From: a virus
IMG/VR virus record: IMGVR_UViG_3300020475_000653
Coordinates: 1 to 27,182 of that record
Length of the DNA stretch: 27,182 nt
Strand: one strand, 5' to 3'
Within the stretch, counting starts at the first letter, position 1; each line of letters begins with the position of its first letter. Shown piece after piece: positions 2,910 to 19,400 of this stretch. The notes beneath the pieces were generated by a model. The model was given only the letters and a program-made list of their open reading frames with translations. It was not told the origin of the DNA and searched no databases. A program made the translations under genes and the position numbers.

Positions 2910-3200
2910 ATGACCAAACCCAATGACGACCATGAAATTGCACTGACCAGTGCTCACTGGGGTGAGTTGAAGGATCGGTGGGCAGAACTCGTATGTGATT
3001 CGATGGATCCCAAGAGCATGGAGCAATTCGTGTATGAGACAATTCGTGAGGGTTTGGATGATCTCACTGCGACTGAATCGGTTCGTCAATTTGAGGATGC
3101 GTTTGACCGTGAGACTGTGGACCAAGTGGTTCGTGATATCACATCGGAAAAATCCAGCCGCCTGGGCATAGTCATCGGAGACGATCCCTGTTACAGTTGA
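2910..3200 (+). CDS. small acidic hypothetical protein
   Basis: A 96-residue acidic, helical protein (MEQFVYETIREGLDDL, SVRQFEDAFDRETVDQVVRDI). GAGAGAAAAG precedes the ATG. It lies 19 nt after the previous stop, so it probably shares that transcript. Unlike the left-end genes, it uses many GTG/CGT/GAC-type codons, as do the next several genes. I recognise no family. A competing antisense frame was considered and rejected. Confidence 0.7.
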   Translation: MTKPNDDHEIALTSAHWGELKDRWAELVCDSMDPKSMEQFVYETIREGLDDLTATESVRQFEDAFDRETVDQVVRDITSEKSSRLGIVIGDDPCYS

Positions 3201-3241
3201 CGTAGTGGCACACTCCGTGACCACAGCACCTGATTTTCGTG

Positions 3242-3247
3242 TATTAT
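3242..3247 (+). promoter_or_regulatory. candidate -10 box exactly 6 nt before ATG
   Basis: TATTAT is followed by AAGAGT and then ATG 3254. If this is a -10 element, transcription would begin at the A of the ATG, giving a leaderless mRNA. No -35 match lies at the right distance. The same geometry occurs at 4213 and 4985. Confidence 0.4.
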
Positions 3248-3253
3248 AAGAGT

Positions 3254-3445
3254 ATGAAATTCACAGATCGCTTTTCCATCGTTCTTGACTCCCAAGAACA
3301 ATCCATGCTCGAAGAAATGGCATCATTTTGTGCTCAGTTCGATTTCACGGAGCATAACGACCCTGAAATCTTTGAGAGAGTCTGGGATAAAATCCTTGAC
3401 GCACATCTCGAAATCGTTGACCAAGACGACAGAGCAAAATCATGA
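3254..3445 (+). CDS. small hypothetical protein
   Basis: A 63-residue acidic protein from ATG 3254; GTG 3239 in frame would add five residues but would overlap the -10 box, so the ATG is preferred. It contains LDSQEQSMLEEMASF and HNDPEIFERVWDKIL, both probably helices. Its stop overlaps the next ATG (ATGA at 3442-3445), so the two genes are coupled. No recognised domain. Confidence 0.7.
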   Translation: MKFTDRFSIVLDSQEQSMLEEMASFCAQFDFTEHNDPEIFERVWDKILDAHLEIVDQDDRAKS

Positions 3446-3660
3446 TCATGTCACTTCACTTCGGTAGGCATTTCTGGTTAGATGAAAATGATGATTTTTG
3501 TTCGTGTCCAACGTTCGTTGATGGCACACCTGACAAAGATCTCTGGGATTACGTTTCAGAATGGACTGACCTTGAGGATGTCAACCTTGACAAACTCTTT
3601 TTCATTCACAAGTCATTGGTTACAGATGCTGTCACTGAGTACGAACAGATGAGAGCATAA
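3442..3660 (+). CDS. small hypothetical protein, aromatic and acidic
   Basis: A 72-residue protein rich in Trp, Phe and Asp (HFGRHFWLDENDDF, DLWDYVSEWTDLEDVNLDKLFF). It begins by ATGA overlap with the preceding gene and has an alternative in-frame ATG two codons later. Its net negative charge and abundant aromatics suggest a small protein-binding role, but I cannot name a family. The next 183 nt up to the terminator at 3844 hold no gene that I can support. Confidence 0.7.
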   Translation: MIMSLHFGRHFWLDENDDFCSCPTFVDGTPDKDLWDYVSEWTDLEDVNLDKLFFIHKSLVTDAVTEYEQMRA

Positions 3661-3843
3661 GAACTAATCGGGGCATACGCAAGGCAGGGGTGAGCAACAA
3701 TTCGGGAGCGTCTTAGATCGCACACCGTGGATAACTGCTCTTTATGTTTGGAGACCTCTTGTACTCACGGTAACTCATCCGTTATAAAAATATGAGTTTT
3801 GAAGTTGTAAGTCCCTAATTATTTCAATTTGTTACAATATTGT

Positions 3844-3870
3844 AAGGTTGGCAGAAATGTCAACCTTTTT
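3844..3870 (+). terminator. rho-independent terminator
   Basis: AAGGTTG (3844-3850) pairs with CAACCTT (3861-3867). Two further inner pairs (one G-U) close a 6-nt loop, and a T-run follows. It ends the transcript of the genes at 3254 and 3442 and sits 4 nt before a TATAAT box. Confidence 0.75.
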
Positions 3871-3874
3871 CTTT

Positions 3875-3880
3875 TATAAT
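3875..3880 (+). promoter_or_regulatory. candidate -10 box after a terminator
   Basis: TATAAT starts 4 nt after the terminator T-run. The expected transcript start is near 3887, about 19 nt before ATG 3906. There is no -35 match. The box overlaps the alternative ATG at 3879, which argues against that start codon. Confidence 0.5.
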
Positions 3881-3905
3881 GATTAAGTACACACGTCAAT
3901 CACGT

Positions 3906-4172
3906 ATGCCAACTGCTACTACTTCCAAGACCACTACCAAAGCACCAGCAAAGCGTAGAACTCGGAAGACAGCAACCAAGGTTACAAAGACCGTGAGGAT
4001 CAAAACCTCAAAACGTCCATCATCAGCAAGACTAATTTCTTCTGATCGTTATGTCAAGGACATACAGACAAGATGGGCAATCCACCAGTACGAAGTCAAA
4101 GAACTCTTCAAAGGATTTCCTGGATACTTCAACTTCGTCAAAACACAATACGCAAAGATGAATCTTTCGTAA
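3906..4172 (+). CDS. basic protein with histone-tail-like N-terminus
   Basis: From ATG 3906 the protein has 88 residues. The first ~45 are almost entirely Lys, Arg, Thr, Ala and Ser (SKTTTKAPAKRRTRKTATK), like an unstructured histone H1 tail. The last ~40 form a normal globular segment (IQTRWAIHQYEVKELFKGF). DNA or RNA binding is therefore likely by composition, but no named family is recognised. ATG 3879 lies inside the predicted -10 box, so 3906 is preferred. The gene is flanked on both sides by terminators and looks like a single-gene transcription unit. Confidence 0.75.
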   Translation: MPTATTSKTTTKAPAKRRTRKTATKVTKTVRIKTSKRPSSARLISSDRYVKDIQTRWAIHQYEVKELFKGFPGYFNFVKTQYAKMNLS

Positions 4173-4185
4173 AGAATTGTTACAG

Positions 4186-4205
4186 AACCCCGAAAGGGGT
4201 TTTTT
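4186..4205 (+). terminator. rho-independent terminator with GAAA tetraloop
   Basis: AACCCC-GAAA-GGGGTT followed by six T. It lies about 13 nt after the stop of the basic protein gene and 7 nt before the next TATAAT box. The same stem and loop recur at 4957-4978. Confidence 0.9.
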
Positions 4206-4212
4206 CATGTCC

Positions 4213-4218
4213 TATAAT
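4213..4218 (+). promoter_or_regulatory. -10 box exactly 6 nt before ATG (leaderless start predicted)
   Basis: TATAAT, then ACCAGT, then ATG 4225. By the usual -10 to +1 distance the A of the ATG is the first transcribed base. No -35 element is possible, because that position falls in the terminator stem. Confidence 0.5.
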
Positions 4219-4224
4219 ACCAGT

Positions 4225-4428
4225 ATGGCAACAAACAACCCTTTTCAAATCCCAAACAACTCCTATGACGCAATCGCCTTTCTCTGTGATGTCTACTCCG
4301 ATTATTGCACAAAGGAAAATCTCCCACAAGTCTCTGCTGATGAACAGAACTTCGGAGAACTTACACAGCGTCAAGTCCTGTGGATCGAGCACTTCATCGA
4401 TGTCTGGGATGCAGTACAGGATTGGTAG
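4225..4428 (+). CDS. small acidic hypothetical protein
   Basis: A 67-residue protein starting MATNNPFQIPNNSYDAIAFL and containing ELTQRQVLWIEHFIDVWDAV, a likely C-terminal helix. ATG 4225 is chosen because of the -10 spacing; ATG 4207 in frame lies between the terminator and the -10 box and would be untranscribed from this promoter. Size, acidity and aromatic content resemble the gene at 3442. It is a one-gene cassette between terminators at 4186 and 4483. No family recognised. Confidence 0.7.
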   Translation: MATNNPFQIPNNSYDAIAFLCDVYSDYCTKENLPQVSADEQNFGELTQRQVLWIEHFIDVWDAVQDW

Positions 4429-4467
4429 ACGCAGAACTTCCATCCTAAACGATTTCTAACCAGTTGA

Positions 4468-4515
4468 CAAACTGGCACACTCAACCCCTCCAAGGGGTTT
4501 TTTAGTGTGTATAAT
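4468..4515 (+). repeat. 48-nt intergenic module, copy 1
   Basis: CAAACTGGCACAC, then a CCCC/GGGG terminator, then TATAAT. Copy 2 at 4943-4990 has the same length and the same internal spacing; by hand alignment 38 of 48 positions are identical. The differences fall mainly in the hairpin loop and in the spacer before TATAAT. Just upstream is an extra inverted repeat, CCAGTT-GACA-AACTGG (4460-4475). Confidence 0.8.
4483..4503 (+). terminator. rho-independent terminator
   Basis: AACCCC (4483-4488), loop TCCAA, GGGGTT (4494-4499) and a run of six T. It terminates the gene at 4225 and is part of the repeated 48-nt module. Confidence 0.9.
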
Positions 4516-4541
4516 TAAGAAGTAACAAACACAAAGCATTT
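4510..4541 (+). promoter_or_regulatory. TATAAT box with conserved 26-nt leader
   Basis: TATAAT at 4510-4515 is followed by an A-rich leader containing AACAAAC and ending CATTTATGAG. The gene at 5949 has almost the same arrangement (TATTAT at 5916, leader 27 nt, also AACAAAC and CATTTATGAG). The likeness covers box, leader and start codon but not the coding sequences that follow. Confidence 0.55.
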
Positions 4542-4721
4542 ATGAGTTTTTTCAATCACGTTCAACTTCACAAGTATGACATCACCGACAAAGGTATTAG
4601 TCAAGCATGTTATGATGAACTGGTTATGAGTGGTAACAACTCTTCCGAAGATCAACTTCGTATACTTGCAGACAGTATGCGTGAAGACTTCAAAAACTAC
4701 ATGAGACCTTTATTCTCATGA
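4542..4721 (+). CDS. small hypothetical protein
   Basis: A 59-residue protein (MSFFNHVQLHKYDITDKG, then SSEDQLRILADSMREDFKNY), probably helical at its C-terminus. The ATG follows the conserved leader described at 4510. Its stop overlaps the next ATG in an ATGA junction, so it is co-translated with the gene at 4718. No Shine-Dalgarno sequence and no recognised family. Confidence 0.65.
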   Translation: MSFFNHVQLHKYDITDKGISQACYDELVMSGNNSSEDQLRILADSMREDFKNYMRPLFS

Positions 4722-4942
4722 ACAGTTTCAACGATTTCATAAACTATTGCCTTGACTTCTACGGTCAAGGCGGTTTATATGACCAAGGTAGAACAAAGGA
4801 GCAAATTGCATTTGCTACCACAATGTACCTTGACGCTATCAAACATTACGATAACGACAGTTACACGTGGGGTGATGGCGATTCATTAGATCGTGAAAGG
4901 GTTCGTGATGTAATGAACGAATACTACGGCAGAGGCAGATAG
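4718..4942 (+). CDS. small hypothetical protein
   Basis: A 74-residue protein rich in Tyr, Asp and Gly (FNDFINYCLDFYGQGGLYDQG, SYTWGDGDSLDRERVRDVM). It is the second gene of a two-gene cassette starting at 4542. The stop TAG is part of TAGCAAACTG, a string also present at the stop of the gene at 4997. Function unknown. Confidence 0.7.
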   Translation: MNSFNDFINYCLDFYGQGGLYDQGRTKEQIAFATTMYLDAIKHYDNDSYTWGDGDSLDRERVRDVMNEYYGRGR

Positions 4943-4956
4943 CAAACTGTCACACC

Positions 4957-4978
4957 AAAACCCCGAAAGGGGTTTTTT
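4957..4978 (+). terminator. rho-independent terminator with GAAA tetraloop
   Basis: AAAACCCC-GAAA-GGGGTTTT (8 base pairs) running into six T. It has the same core as the terminator at 4186. A TATAAT box starts 6 nt after the T-run. Confidence 0.9.
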
Positions 4979-4984
4979 CTTTTG

Positions 4985-4990
4985 TATAAT
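4985..4990 (+). promoter_or_regulatory. -10 box exactly 6 nt before ATG (leaderless start predicted)
   Basis: TATAAT, AAAGGT, ATG 4997. The AAAGG resembles a Shine-Dalgarno sequence but is only 1 nt from the ATG and would not be transcribed if the start is at the ATG. The -35 position falls in the terminator. Confidence 0.5.
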
Positions 4991-4996
4991 AAAGGT

Positions 4997-5875
4997 ATGA
5001 ACAAAAACACCCACCTTGAGCACCCCGAAGACCTTATCATTGGAGGTTTCGTGTCGGTGCTCTTTTTGTTGTATAATGAATTCAATGTTTCTCTGAAAAT
5101 CGATGGAAGTCCTGCTATTGTCTGGGGTACGGATCCTGTTACTGGCACTTTCTTCGTGGGGACGAAATCGGTATTCAACAAAAAGAAAATCAAGATCCCA
5201 CACTCTCACGAAGAGATCGATCAACATTACAAAGCACCGTTAGCAGACATACTACACGCATGTTTTGATAATCTTCCAAGAACAGAGGGAATTTATCAAG
5301 GTGACTTCATCGGGTTCGGTGGCACAGACACATTTACCCCAAACACTTTGACCTACAAATTCCCAGAGGTTATCAATCAAAATATCATTGTTGCACCGCA
5401 TACTGAGTACACAGCGACTAATGATCTTCGTGATGCAGTTTGCAAACCTCTCCAGGAACATTTCGTAGATACTGATCAAATCAAGTGGGTTCAACCTTGC
5501 GTGGATTTGGTTCGTAGAAATGACGTTTCACCACCTGTGCCATATAAGCAAAATTGGATCACAGGCACTGAGTATACCAAAATCAAAAAAGACATCAACA
5601 CACTCATCAAAAATGACATTCCTCTCACTGATTCTATTCTCACTGATATTCTCAATGATGTCCAACTCACAAACCTTTTCCAACTCGTCAGCGAAGTAAA
5701 GGAAGACCTTATGCAATCGTTTATTATTCATGATGCACCACAGGTGTTTTTGAATGGTCAACCATCACAGCATGAAGGTTTCGTGATTTGGTCAGAGTAC
5801 GGTCAATGCAAATTGGTCAACCGTTCAGAGTTTAGTGCAGCAAACTTCGCCAGAGGTGCAGTATGGGACAGTTAG
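4997..5875 (+). CDS. ligase-like nucleotidyltransferase domain protein
   Basis: A 292-residue protein with the layout of covalent nucleotidyltransferases (RNA/DNA ligase fold). Seen: KIDGSPA at 34-40 (motif I, KxDG, with Lys34 as candidate AMP-accepting lysine), FFVGTKS at 52-58, YQGDF at 100-104, HEGFVIW at 259-265 (motif IV, EGFV), and CKLVNR at 271-276 (motif V, with Lys272). The segment LEHPEDL...KIDGSPAIVWGTDP...TGTFFVGTKS resembles a T4-like phage family that I recall with KWDGAPA...GTDP, whose function is not settled. There is no added DNA-binding or OB domain. Possible roles are nucleic acid ligation, repair or nucleotidylation of another target. The frame extends to TTG 4982, but ATG 4997 fits the -10 spacing. 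It is a single-gene cassette. Confidence 0.7.
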   Translation: MNKNTHLEHPEDLIIGGFVSVLFLLYNEFNVSLKIDGSPAIVWGTDPVTGTFFVGTKSVFNKKKIKIPHSHEEIDQHYKAPLADILHACFDNLPRTEGIYQGDFIGFGGTDTFTPNTLTYKFPEVINQNIIVAPHTEYTATNDLRDAVCKPLQEHFVDTDQIKWVQPCVDLVRRNDVSPPVPYKQNWITGTEYTKIKKDINTLIKNDIPLTDSILTDILNDVQLTNLFQLVSEVKEDLMQSFIIHDAPQVFLNGQPSQHEGFVIWSEYGQCKLVNRSEFSAANFARGAVWDS

Positions 5876-5902
5876 CAAACTGACCATTTTTCCACCATTC
5901 GC

Positions 5903-5921
5903 ACTGCTTAAGCAGTATTAT
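5903..5921 (+). promoter_or_regulatory. palindrome abutting a TATTAT box
   Basis: The perfect 14-nt palindrome ACTGCTTAAGCAGT (5903-5916) ends on the first T of TATTAT (5916-5921). Its position fits an operator covering the -10 region. Unlike the other cassette junctions, no T-run terminator is seen between the stop at 5875 and this box. The downstream leader resembles that at 4510. Confidence 0.45.
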
Positions 5922-5948
5922 TAAAGAGTCAACAAACCAAAAACATTT

Positions 5949-6284
5949 ATGAGAAAGATCGAATCCCAAATGTGCTCTGCAGTTCGTTTCAAGCATGACT
6001 TCGCAAAGGATAACACCAGAGTTGAGATCGTGCAGGAGAATGACAGACCAGTCGCAGAGGTTCGTCTTCATAATAATCTCATCGCTCGCATCGGTGATGG
6101 GTTTATGCAAATCACATCAGCAGGTTGGGAGACAGTCACCACAAAATCCAGACTAAATGCTCTACTTCGTGATGGCGTGTTCAACGGCACAGGGTGTAGC
6201 ATCTTTCAGAAGGATTTCTACTGGTACATCAACACCCCAGACGGCACGGTTGATTTTGCAGATGGCATGATCATCCCAGTCTAA
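5949..6284 (+). CDS. conserved-looking hypothetical protein
   Basis: A 111-residue soluble protein. It reads as a mixed alpha/beta domain: a helical start (SAVRFKHDFAKDN), then strands (TRVEIVQEN, AEVRLHNNLIARIG), TSAGWETVTTKSRLNALL, and an aromatic strand IFQKDFYWYI near the end. This ordering recalls small bacterial and phage proteins with a HGNxIA...TTRSRLNAL signature, but I cannot name the family with certainty. The start is supported by the conserved leader shared with the gene at 4542. A terminator follows at 6295. Confidence 0.75.
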   Translation: MRKIESQMCSAVRFKHDFAKDNTRVEIVQENDRPVAEVRLHNNLIARIGDGFMQITSAGWETVTTKSRLNALLRDGVFNGTGCSIFQKDFYWYINTPDGTVDFADGMIIPV

Positions 6285-6294
6285 CAGAATAAGC

Positions 6295-6318
6295 AAAGGA
6301 CTGGCAACAGTCCTTTTT
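6295..6318 (+). terminator. rho-independent terminator with GCAA tetraloop
   Basis: AAAGGACTG-GCAA-CAGTCCTTT, 9 perfect base pairs with T-run. It closes the accessory block. TATTAT (6319-6324) follows with no gap, but no gene follows it (only an 11-codon frame at 6352), so it may be a remnant junction. Confidence 0.9.
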
Positions 6319-6380
6319 TATTATCTAAATTAACAATTAGCAGTCATATTGATGTGCCTAAATGTTAAGATTTGCGCCCG

Positions 6381-6440
6381 TATATAAAAACACCTAAGTC
6401 CCTAACCTACAAACCTTTACCATCGACCTGTATATAAAAA
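6381..6440 (+). repeat. two TATATAAAAA boxes 50 bp apart
   Basis: TATATAAAAA occurs at 6381-6390 and 6431-6440, each preceded by a C- and G-containing triplet (CCG, CTG) and followed by A/C-rich DNA. They lie between the accessory block and the structural block. They may be promoter-like A/T boxes or protein-binding sites; the function is not evident. Confidence 0.45.
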
Positions 6441-6478
6441 ACGCACTTTGAAAAAAATGCCCCAGAGAAAAATTTTCG

Positions 6479-6487
6479 TGGTATAAT
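6479..6487 (+). promoter_or_regulatory. extended -10 promoter candidate before the structural block
   Basis: TGG-TATAAT (TG at 6479-6480, TATAAT at 6482-6487) has the extended -10 form. The expected start is near 6494, with an 18-nt leader containing AGGA before ATG 6512. The same TGG-TATAAT string occurs at 10712-10720. Confidence 0.55.
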
Positions 6488-6511
6488 AAGTAGTACAGGA
6501 TCACATAAAAA

Positions 6512-6709
6512 ATGGAAGATAAATACAACATTTATGTCGTTGGAGATCTAAAGCATAATCTTGTAACTGAACAAGAGATGTTAGATATCCTTTTAGACTA
6601 TGCTGATGCATATCACGAAGATACATCTCAGCCTAGGGACATCCAAGTTGAACTCGTAAAAGAAAATGGTGAAAAAAGACTCCTCACAAAATCCAATGAA
6701 GTATCGTAA
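6512..6709 (+). CDS. small hypothetical protein at the head of the structural block
   Basis: A 65-residue acidic protein (YNIYVVGDLKHNLVTEQEMLDILLDYADAY, then VELVKENGEKRLL), probably a small alpha/beta fold. AGGA in the leader is a plausible ribosome binding site. The next gene overlaps its end. It precedes virion genes and probably shares their transcript, but nothing in it shows a structural role. Confidence 0.75.
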   Translation: MEDKYNIYVVGDLKHNLVTEQEMLDILLDYADAYHEDTSQPRDIQVELVKENGEKRLLTKSNEVS

Positions 6710-11192: not shown

Positions 11193-11594
11193 ATGGCGAA
11201 AGCAGACCTTCTTTCCCGATCATTCAAAGACATATCCTTTAGTTTTGATTCACACCCCAAAACTAAGGATATTTTGGTGAAAAGAAATGAAGCAGCGATA
11301 AAGTCTGCTCTAAAGCATTTAATAATGACCAATATAGGTGAAAGACCCTTTCAACCTGAACTTGGAACAAATCTCTCTAGACTTCTATTTGATAATTGCG
11401 ATTACGGAACTGCGTCCCAAATCTCTGATGAAATTACTAGAGTTATTCAGACATATGAAGAAAGAGTTGTATTGAGTCTAGTAGACGTAAATCCAATTCC
11501 AGATAATAATTCCTTTGATGTTTCTATTGAGTTTGAAATTGTCGGGATTCCACATACGCAGACAATCGAATTCTATTTGGAAAGCACTAGGTAA
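11193..11594 (+). CDS. 25: baseplate wedge protein gp25
   Basis: A 133-residue protein of the gp25/GPW family (T4 gp25 is 132 residues). The diagnostic segment GERPFQPELGTNLSRLLF is at residues 49-66, where the conserved ER-P-PE-G-L-L pattern is intact, followed by helices (ISDEITRVIQTYEERV) and C-terminal strands. In T4, gp25 sits in each baseplate wedge close to gp6 and gp53 and helps start sheath assembly. The gene is followed after 2 nt by gp6, as expected for an assembly module. Confidence 0.96.
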   Translation: MAKADLLSRSFKDISFSFDSHPKTKDILVKRNEAAIKSALKHLIMTNIGERPFQPELGTNLSRLLFDNCDYGTASQISDEITRVIQTYEERVVLSLVDVNPIPDNNSFDVSIEFEIVGIPHTQTIEFYLESTR

Positions 11595-16400: not shown

Positions 16401-19400
16401 CTTTAGTTGGTGCAACAGTATCTAACGTTTCATCAGGATCTATTGATTCTGTTATTATTGAAAATGGTGGTAAAAACTACGTAGATGTAGCAAGTAATGA
16501 ATCCTTCACTCCTAGATGGGGTGCTGGAGATGAGTTCTATGTTGACAATTCAAATACACAAGGTACTGGATTTACAGCAGCAGTTTCATCTATTCTTCCT
16601 AAGAGTCCAAGTGGAGCTGTTGTAAACACATCATCTATTGTTGCTTCTGATATTGTTGGAAAGATTGATTCTAGACAACAGAAACTAACAGTTCCTTCTC
16701 CATCAGTAGATACTAGTACAAATGTATTGTATTATAATAGAATTTCTGAAGGTGACGAGATCTCAGATAATACTGTTATTGAACAGGAATTTGAAACTGC
16801 TATTAATACAGGACTTTTAGACGAAATTTATCTTCGTGCTAATAATCTTGAGAATCTTAGCACTGGAATGACATTGGAGATTGAAGATGAGATAGTATAT
16901 GTTAATGGTGTCCCAACCAATAACACAAAGTACGTTTATCTTAAGGTTTCTTCTACAGAGCAATTATCTAATGATTTACCAATAACAGCAGGATCCCAAA
17001 AAGGATTTTATTATGAGTATATCAATGGAGCATATGGATTTGATGAGATATACGTAGATGCAAATAATGTATCTTACAAGATTGGTAAGATTATAGCACT
17101 TGATAGAGTTGCAAATACAATGCAACTTGAAATGTATATCAACCCTGTTACTAGCAATTATTATACATTTACAGTTTCATCTACATTCAATCAGTCATTA
17201 TATAGTGGTGCTGGTGGATATGAGCATAATATAAGTGTTGCTGACGTTGGAGGGGCAGGTGTCGCTGCTTCAGCTGCAATTTTCAATGCTGATGGATCTG
17301 GTAGTAGATATGCTAGTTCAATCTCATCACCAACTACAGAGACTAATTTATGGGGTGGAGCGAACAATAAGAACTATTTTGGAGAGGGTCGTGCTGGAGA
17401 CTTTGAATTTGCTAAAACTGTACCAGTACTTCGTGGATGGGATGCTTCTAAAAAAGTTCCTCACTTAGCTGGTACAGCAGTAGTAAGTCAAACACCTGAA
17501 GGTGTTATAAGTGATTACACTGTAAGGATATCTATTACTGGAGCATCTAGTATGGATGCTTGGAATGTTGGTACTTATATAAAAGGAGCAACGTCTCAAT
17601 GTGAAGGAAGAGTTTCAAAAATAGAGAAAATTGACAATAGTAATGGTTATCTCTTTGTAAAAGATATAAAATCAGGACCTAATGCTTCAGATCTTCCTAG
17701 ATTTGGTGCATATAGTGCTGGAACATTCAGTTCAGAGACTGTCAATGAAATTGGAATTGGTGCAACTAATACAGTAGCTGGTGGAGTTGTTACAAGTTAT
17801 GATCCAGCAACATCTACTAGTACACAACTTACTAGAACAATATCCAATACTGATACTATTATACGTGTAGGAAATGCATCTGCTTTCCCTCTTGATAGAT
17901 ACATCTCTATTGGATCTGAGAAAATGAGAATTGTCTCTAGGGATATAGAGAATAAAACATGGACAGTTGCTAGAAAACAATTAGGTAGTTCATATCCTAC
18001 TAGTGGTAGTCACTTGAATGGTGCAACAGTTGAGATTGCAAATGCACAAGCAACTTTCACTGCAGGATCTGATAAGTATTATGCAACAGTAGATCTTTAT
18101 AATGCTCAAAGATTTACTACATCAAGTTCATTCAAGGATCAGGATGACAATAATATATTCGTACAAGATCAAGTTATAAATCCAATAACCACTGATCAGA
18201 GAAATATAGCATTTGGACCTACTAAGTTTGATTTCTTCAATCTAGGAAACATAGTCAAGATTGGAACTGAAATGCTTCGTTTGGATGGAAAGGCTGGTAA
18301 TATTTTCCAAGTGACCAGAGGATTGCTTGGTACTACAGGTCAGGAACATGCACATAATACTGATATAACAAACCAAAGTGAACTTGAAGCAATTCTTCAG
18401 ACAGATATTGCTCATGGTTTGAGCGAAGATGATTTAGTTGAGATATTTGGAGATCCAGCAACTAATCAATCAATTACTACACCAGTTGTAGTAAAGTTTG
18501 ATGGTACTAACAACAGATTCTTATTCTCTAGTATTCATACTAATAATAGTTTTGAATCTAATCCAAATTTATCTTTTGTATATGGACACAAGTACGTATT
18601 TGATGTATCAGAACTAACCAATCAAACAACTATATTATCATTCTATAATGATGATTTGTATACTGATGAGTATGCTGTTAGTAGAGTTGGTACTCCAGGT
18701 AATGCTAATGCTACAGTTACACTGATAATAACTGATACTTCTATTTCAAATCTATTCTATGATAATTCAAATAGTTCTATAACAGATAGTAATCCAAAGA
18801 TCAATTTTGTTGAGGATCCATATAATACTGGTGGAACTCCTATCTTTGATGTTACATCTACTACTTTCAAGTATATTGTCAAGAGAAGAGTAGAAGGACA
18901 GGCAAGAGGTACAAAAAAAATGGGAGTTGTTACTCCAAATGTATTTGGTGAAATTGCTAATATTAATATTATAAATCAAGGTTTTGGATATGAATCTCTT
19001 CCTGTTATAAAAGGTATATCTCTCAGAAAAGATGATGAATTGCGTTATTCACTTACTATAGATGAGAATACTGGGGAGATTACTGGAGTTAGTGTAAGTA
19101 CTCCTGATACAAGGGAATTTGGTGGTAGTAGATATATAAGTCCAACAATATATGTTATAGGAAATGGAACTGGTGCTGAATTGGTTGCAGATACTCAAGG
19201 TGGATCAGTTCGTAGTATTAGGGTAACAAGCGGAGGTCAAGGATATACATCAGGAACTGAATTACTTCTTGTTGAAGAAGATGAAAGGAACATAAGAGTT
19301 CTTCCATCATCTTCTACTATTGGTAAGGTTATTGGACTTGATATAACAAGTCCTGGTGCTCGCTTCTCTAATAACTATACAATGGTTCCTGAGACTACTA

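Follow-up and report, generated by a model that had tools for sequence, protein, structure and literature searches.

A palindromic operator at fixed distance from the -10 box marks a candidate promoter class in marine T4-like cyanophages

Introduction

T4-like phages reportedly carry promoter-early stem-loops (PeSLs), elements that Arbiol in 2010 and Comeau in 2014 are said to have described as having strong sigma-70-like promoters. The middle promoters of T4 follow another plan, in which TATAAT is accompanied by a MotA box near -30 that replaces the -35 element. Here we analyze a 27,182-nucleotide stretch of viral DNA (IMG/VR record IMGVR_UViG_3300020475_000653, positions 1 to 27,182; hereafter the window), in which several TATAAT-like -10 boxes stand at a fixed distance behind a 24-bp palindrome that we term the operator, in some cases with a transcription terminator folded into the spacer between the two. 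The recurrence of this arrangement suggests, with a probability that we put at roughly three in four, an activator-dependent, PeSL-like class of early or middle promoters that is widespread in cyanophages.

A stem-loop coupled to a promoter in a region of small open reading frames (ORFs) matches the published PeSL description, as cited in a passage of Puxty et al. (PMC4503421). The same passage lists two stem-loops, one of them at S-PM2 11369-11391, and judges PeSLs too sparse. According to part of a 2010 review (PMC2984593), cyanomyoviruses are without motA and asiA, and control of early and middle genes without MotA/AsiA in marine T4-like cyanophages is called unclear. Excerpts of Sullivan et al. 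2010 (PMC3037559) report cyanophage motif searches for sigma-70, late, NtcA and Pho elements, predict NtcA (GTA-N8-TAC) and Pho sites, and give the T4 late box as of TATAAAT type.

Results

The sequence-only reading of the window had proposed a run of five junctions at which a terminator is closely followed by a TATAAT or TATTAT box. Each lies where that reading placed it (the operators, hairpins, boxes and genes given here for 3189-6324 are on the plus strand): junction 1 (hairpin 3844-3867, TATAAT 3875-3880), junction 2 (4184-4203, TATAAT 4213-4218), junction 3 (4483-4499, TATAAT 4510-4515), junction 4 (4957-4976, TATAAT 4985-4990) and junction 5 (6295-6316, TATTAT 6319-6324). The boxes at 4510 and 4985 belong, together with two that the reading overlooked, to one predicted promoter class defined by the 24-bp palindromic operator at fixed spacing. 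The two additional members are TATTAT at 3242-3247, whose spacer has no terminator, and TATTAT at 5916-5921, which adjoins a short hairpin (5904-5915) without a T-run. Their operators lie at 3189-3212 (score 18/21; 29 nt before the -10) and 5864-5887 (16/21), and those of junctions 3 and 4 at 4456-4479 and 4931-4954 (17/21 each). A sequence-only model trained on 82 sequences, R1, places the four operator promoters at 3193-3255, 4460-4521 (junction 3), 4936-4998 (junction 4) and 5864-5928, with E values of 1.4e-9, 5.1e-9, 5.8e-7 and 4.9e-5, respectively. The operators at 3189, 4931 and 5864, three of the four, extend over the stop codon of the preceding coding sequence (CDS 2910-3200, 4718-4942 and 4997-5875, respectively), and at junctions 3 and 4 the terminator hairpin is nested between operator and -10.

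The fixed spacing extends well beyond the window. In a k-mer survey that covered both strands of 81 loci and was centered on TATAAT, TATTAT, TATACT and TATATT (2340 sites after dereplication), the k-mers with the most preferred distance assemble into a single palindrome, TGTGMCASTT-N4-AASTGKCACA; a separate class of canonical TTGACA-N16/17 promoters was also found. Four of the 81 loci are isolate regions picked near known matches, and the count was redone with 75 protein-fetched loci (2020 dereplicated sites). There, operator scores of at least 14 occur 25, 82 and 39 times at gaps of 28, 29 and 30 nt, against a mean of 1.66 and a maximum of 6 at the other 53 gaps. The last base of the operator thus lies 28-30 nt before the -10 and its center about 41 nt upstream of the -10, at about -53. 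Selection by the upstream box gave a similar picture: a search with TTNACAAASTGGCACAC returned at least 120 stretches, and of the 63 dereplicated instances among the 123 listed, picked by box alone, 46 have a hexamer with at least five of the six TATAAT letters 27-30 nt past the box, as opposed to 2 and 1 at control offsets.

We examined 13 cyanophage isolates, four of which (P-HM2, S-PM2, P-SSM2 and S-SSM4) contributed training sequences to R1 and nine none. The pattern TGGCAC-N18..42-TATWAT has 93 matches in these genomes, 23 at gap 30, 13 at gap 31 and 57 at the other 23 gaps, with none at gaps 30-31 in S-SM2. T4, RB49 and HTVC008M together have 7 matches, none at gaps 30-31, and Ma-LMM01 has no match to the pattern. 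At E ≤0.001, R1 matches all 13 cyanophages and none of T4, RB49, HTVC008M and Ma-LMM01. Matches that reach the -10 end of the model are present in 12 of the 13, from 3 per genome (S-SM1, P-TIM68) to 17 (P-SSM2); some of the other matches are the palindrome in reverse. The stem-loop at S-PM2 11369-11391 falls inside one R1 operator promoter, 11349-11408. In P-RSM4 and P-SSM7, both outside the training set, 20 of 23 matches lie -8 to +35 nt from a CDS start where 2.7 are expected, counting plus-strand matches inside the annotated stretches fetched and leaving out minus-strand and outside matches; in 3 of these 20, the annotated start lies 1-8 nt before the match end, once overlapping the -10. 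Targets include a peptidase gene near replication genes, cobS, and the DUF6267 (T4-GC71) gene of P-SSM7.

Of 176 operator promoters, 123 have a perfect TATAAT as the -10. Operator promoters resemble T4 late promoters in having a -10-type element without a -35, but the hexamer is not the late TATAAATA, which speaks against the gp55-type sigma factor that the sequence-only reading had raised; to our knowledge, moreover, T4 late promoters have no upstream operator of this palindromic kind. An extended -10 is seen in a minority: TG occurs in 27 of 176 operator promoters (171 of 2133 controls) and in none of the window junctions. A T five bases ahead of the -10 is present in 119 of 176, compared with 715 of 2133 controls. 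The likeness to T4 middle promoters, which depend on the MotA box and AsiA, lies in a TATAAT whose upstream activator box stands in the -35's stead; the conserved box here differs in being another palindrome, about 41 nt upstream of the -10. Operator promoters also depart from the canonical host sigma-70 early promoter, with TTGACA 16-18 nt before TATAAT. At least four of the six -35 letters are found in 59 of 176, against 194 of 1760 shuffled spacers and 348 of 2133 other -10-like sites. For every box of the window run, the best -35 match at 16-18 nt is three of six letters, in agreement with the earlier remark that no -35 is visible at the junctions. That remark had blamed the terminator occupying the position; a terminator is optional, and for 4510 and 4985 the conserved upstream operator is the better explanation.

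The optional nature of the terminator is apparent from the 46 promoters selected by box among the matches listed. Because 22 of them have a spacer with neither a hairpin of at least 5 bp nor a TTTT run, the operator and the -10 appear to belong together, with the terminator as an optional insert. Spacer hairpins are enriched: stems of at least 6 bp occur in 52 of 176 operator promoters, compared with 3.5 in shuffled spacers and 152 of 2133 other -10-like sites, and 29 of the 52 end 7-11 nt before the -10, the classical terminator layout. Another 20 of the 52 reach to within 0-3 nt of the -10, too close for a T-run to fit. A different solution is seen in relatives of the DUF6267 gene (for example L136), where the -35 hexamer itself forms the terminator loop (AGGGGTC-TTGACA-GACCCCT); next come a T-run, the -10 and, 6 nt on, an ATG. 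Such -35-in-loop elements with a T-run in a 17-nt spacer number 17 in 2.1 Mb (L136:3963, L131:1996, L134:95, L125:2767 and others) and 0 in one block-shuffled control. Since the hairpin is nested in the operator spacer in some cases and holds the -35 as its loop in others, these phages are predicted to have two or more designs for merging a terminator with a promoter.

The coupling of terminator to box in the window exceeds chance by a wide margin. On the plus strand of 3000-6600, a box follows each of the five terminators, whereas 300 dinucleotide shuffles average 0.22 terminators and contain zero junctions. Across the whole window, a box follows 6 of 7 plus-strand terminators, the sixth junction lying downstream of the region at 16453, and 0 of 4 minus-strand terminators; none of 60 plus-strand shuffles of the window reaches six. 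Folding energies of the five junction hairpins range from -11.6 to -22.5 kcal/mol (z scores -2.6 to -5.3), the RNA folded for junction 3 taking in the operator too. These scans and folds bear out the proposal that terminator and promoter are tightly coupled. Boxes alone are weak evidence because TATAAT and TATTAT are already in excess throughout the window (68 versus 37.9 +/- 7.4): a box is cheap, and its coupling to a terminator is not.

Most operator promoters stand at a modest distance from a gene: in 106 of 186, an ORF of 35 codons or more has its first ATG 20-29 nt past the -10. Leaderless transcription as a general rule was rejected, an ATG at 10 nt or less being found in just 17 of 186. 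In the window, the ATG lies 6 nt past the box at 3242, upstream of a small CDS (3254-3445) with no Pfam or PHROG match that is followed by CDS 3442-3660 (phrog_13427), and this is a candidate leaderless start. The same distance separates the junction 4 box from the gene for a 292-residue DUF6267 protein (phrog_455; 4997-5875). Of 43 distinct upstream regions compared for this gene, 9, several of them close kin, place the ATG exactly 6 nt past a TATAAT-like box (orthologues with this layout are in L085, L115, L124, L138, L140, L142, L143 and L349), and by eye the layout also appears elsewhere with CATACT or AATACT boxes. The DUF6267 transcript (window 4985-4999 and orthologues) is therefore a candidate conserved leaderless mRNA. 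The window protein matches just positions 22-335 of the 764-position phrog_455 profile.

The five junctions are of more than one kind. The first four each precede a gene or gene pair, as had been claimed: CDS 3906-4172 after junction 1, the phrog_9962 CDS 4225-4428 after junction 2 (ATG 6 nt past the box; also a leaderless candidate), the pair 4542-4721 (phrog_19379) and 4718-4942 (phrog_7799) after junction 3, and the DUF6267 gene after junction 4, which at 292 residues does not fit the description of small genes throughout. No gene starts soon after 6319, and the next CDS, at 6512, has its own TATAAT at 6482. Because junction 5 has neither an operator nor a nearby gene start, it is probably just a plain terminator. 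At junction 2, a tentative site of a second type, GTAAAGAATTGTTAC (4169-4183), lies 29 nt before the -10. Used as a query at 12 of 15 letters, this site gave 14 rows, all 29-30 or 39-40 nt before a -10; the match is weak, the query being the site itself, and the rows include the window's own virus, one element counted twice and one operator of the main type. A GTAANNNATTGTTAC-like element at these distances from TATAAT-like boxes is suggestive only of a second operator type.

The sequence-only reading had also suggested that such genes could be exchanged as units. Homology blocks end at operator promoters in 182 of 1451 clustered ends, versus 89 +/- 9 under random shifts, and a block end coincides with 100 of 188 ORF starts that have an operator and 694 of 2004 that lack one, with spurious ORFs kept in. 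Faster intergenic divergence accounts for part of this excess, and we regard the result as moderate evidence that terminator-promoter junctions act as module boundaries. DNA of junction 3 (4458-4536) recurs in other contigs encoding relatives of two window proteins, with a different downstream gene in L050, L062 and L070, among others, and the same gene in L079 and L083. A supposed junction swap between the window and one relative, L010, proved to be ordinary orthology at junction 4; at junction 3 the two differ by an insertion plus a replaced terminator stem.

The operator arms are symmetric in consensus, and the frequency with which they pair is close to that expected from column composition (66.2% versus 65.3 +/- 1.0 in shuffles, with 91 of 500 shuffles as high). 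In 42 of 500 shuffles the covariation score was as high, which leaves room for a weak effect. Because the half-sites vary largely independently and show no clear covariation, the evidence favors a DNA site for a dimeric regulator. That the operator is scarce in genomes of a putative host family favors a regulator that is phage-encoded or phage-modified: in a limited scan, R1 matched 1 of 194 cyanobacterial genomes and 0 of 121 genomes of that family (1.0-3.9 Mb, taken as picocyanobacterial from their size alone). In phage DNA, the bare palindrome, allowing up to two mismatches, has 199 sites in about 1.0 Mb, 37 of them in isolate parts chosen near matches, versus 0 control sites.

The gene content of the window is that of a T4-like cyanophage, with Kyano_Gp96 (CDS 5949-6284) and DUF6267 families identified by family search, and its DNA resembles Synechococcus, Prochlorococcus and marine virus records. 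An Rfam scan found no match near the junction region. The stretch 3671-3815, which is 89% identical to Marine virus AG-345-L05 (MH319755), contains no plus-strand ORF of at least 40 residues and no Rfam match, and may be a small RNA or a gene remnant. Upstream, an AT-rich region (2290-2650) holds degenerate CTCGACTAG/CTAGCTCATACATATGTA repeats and several TATAAT boxes, and two perfect TTGACA-N17-TATAAT promoters (436-464 and 2338-2366) form a class distinct from the operator promoters.

Discussion

The closest described relatives of the operator promoters are PeSLs, which likewise pair a terminator with an early-type promoter and lie in hyperplastic regions, between small genes that can be exchanged. 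Junctions 1-4 show the direct coupling of stem-loop terminator to promoter that characterizes PeSLs. Operator promoters differ in their weak or absent -35, their 24-bp palindrome near -53 and their optional terminator, and because of the operator and the weak -35 we do not file them as plain PeSLs, although they would work like them. We did not find a report of the motif in the open-access literature searched; the Syn9 transcriptome and PeSL papers, which lay outside that search, may print it.

What the sequences show is an operator that keeps a fixed distance to the -10, sits at gene starts, occurs in full length in 12 of 13 isolates and may or may not be accompanied by a terminator. We propose that it is bound, around -53, by a symmetric protein dimer that either recruits host RNA polymerase or stabilizes it. 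Such an activator would compensate for the weak -35, and the spacer thus freed could house a terminator. A terminator nested there would end the upstream transcript inside the next promoter, making a compact composite and possibly a module boundary, and each cassette would be turned on as a member of a single phage regulon.

Several observations weigh against this proposal. The operator is absent from junctions 1, 2 and 5 (top scores of 9, 11 and 9 of 21 for the boxes at 3875, 4213 and 6319), so that it accounts for part of the run only. The 146 promoters scoring at least 14 fall in 35 of the protein-fetched loci, the rest having none, and S-SM2 has a single partial R1 match that ends at model position 51. 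Since 59 of 176 promoters keep at least four -35 letters, above both shuffled spacers and other -10-like sites, the operator may supplement a -35 rather than replace one. As for the regulator, HTH_3, HTH_Crp_2 and MarR_2 gave no match above cut-off in 17 phage records and the window, and a candidate, phrog_1987 (T4-GC66), was set aside as it is found in only 8 of 13 cyanophages. Part of one paper (PMC9692554) reports a MarR-type regulator in the podovirus P-SSP7 that binds elsewhere. Finally, because the host scans applied strict filters and scored, in each genome, 26-42 candidates out of as many as about 1000, they bound a strong regulon and not single sites. The bare palindrome, at up to two mismatches, has 21 sites in 13 of the 121 putative host genomes versus 4 control sites, a small excess concentrated in few assemblies; inspection of 11 of the 21 sites (10 regions) turned up a TATAGT 30 nt downstream of one site and, 29 nt downstream of another, a poor TAAATT.

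The elements could instead be ordinary PeSLs, in which host sigma-70 early promoters behind terminators need no special regulator and the palindrome is a tract of homology for recombination. The cited description fits a coupled stem-loop and promoter among small ORFs (PMC4503421), block ends at operator promoters are about twice the expected number, and some relatives hold a canonical -35 as terminator loop. We nevertheless give this explanation only a small chance: a recombination tract has no need of a 28-30 nt spacing that is kept with or without a terminator, and the -35 is weak or absent in most operator promoters.

We rate it just as unlikely that a host regulator, whether NtcA, Pho, RpaB or another, drives these promoters. 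In its favor, Sullivan et al. 2010 (PMC3037559) predicted NtcA and Pho sites in cyanophages, the NtcA site being a palindromic activator site in the same phages; some putative host genomes show the small palindrome excess noted above, and junctions 1 and 2 have a GTTACA-type sequence when compared with an RpaB consensus. The operator itself, however, is neither GTA-N8-TAC, which the columns of the 176 promoters do not fit (junction 2 holds GTA-N9-TAC), nor CTTA-N7-CTTA, and the limited R1 scan of 121 genomes of the putative host family returned nothing.

Repressors seldom act alone from upstream of the core promoter. With the operator centered at about -53, and with a -35 as weak as in activated promoters, it is improbable that the operator binds a repressor and that host-type promoters are silenced by a phage or host factor, even though repressors typically bind palindromes and part of a -35 is retained in a third of the promoters. 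It is highly improbable that the palindrome acts as RNA, folding at the 3' end of the preceding transcript into a hairpin that serves in processing or termination, as its arms show no clear covariation, their pairing is near the composition expectation and its distance to the downstream -10 is fixed, although in the RNA of junction 3 it forms a perfect 6-bp stem, three of four window operators overlap a stop codon and the covariation score reaches the upper edge of the shuffles.

An activator acting at the operator is thus our preferred reading. In its fullest form, marine T4-like cyanophages without MotA and AsiA would run a dedicated early or middle regulon through an undescribed phage-encoded dimeric activator that binds the palindrome at about -53, with terminators folded into the spacer so that each cassette stops its neighbor and starts itself within about 70 bp; we see the odds of this complete picture as even. 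Parts of two reports (PMC5082946, PMC7238727) indicate that time-class data are published for P-HM2, P-SSM2 and Syn9. With 3-17 full copies in 12 of 13 isolates, the operator offers a DNA bait for the regulator, and the regulon becomes definable by sequence. The operator also offers a reason why promoters of this class would escape a search built around a -35, and it is relevant to the judgment that S-PM2 has few PeSL-like elements. The recurrence of the design in related viruses suggests a gene switch of a kind hitherto undescribed.

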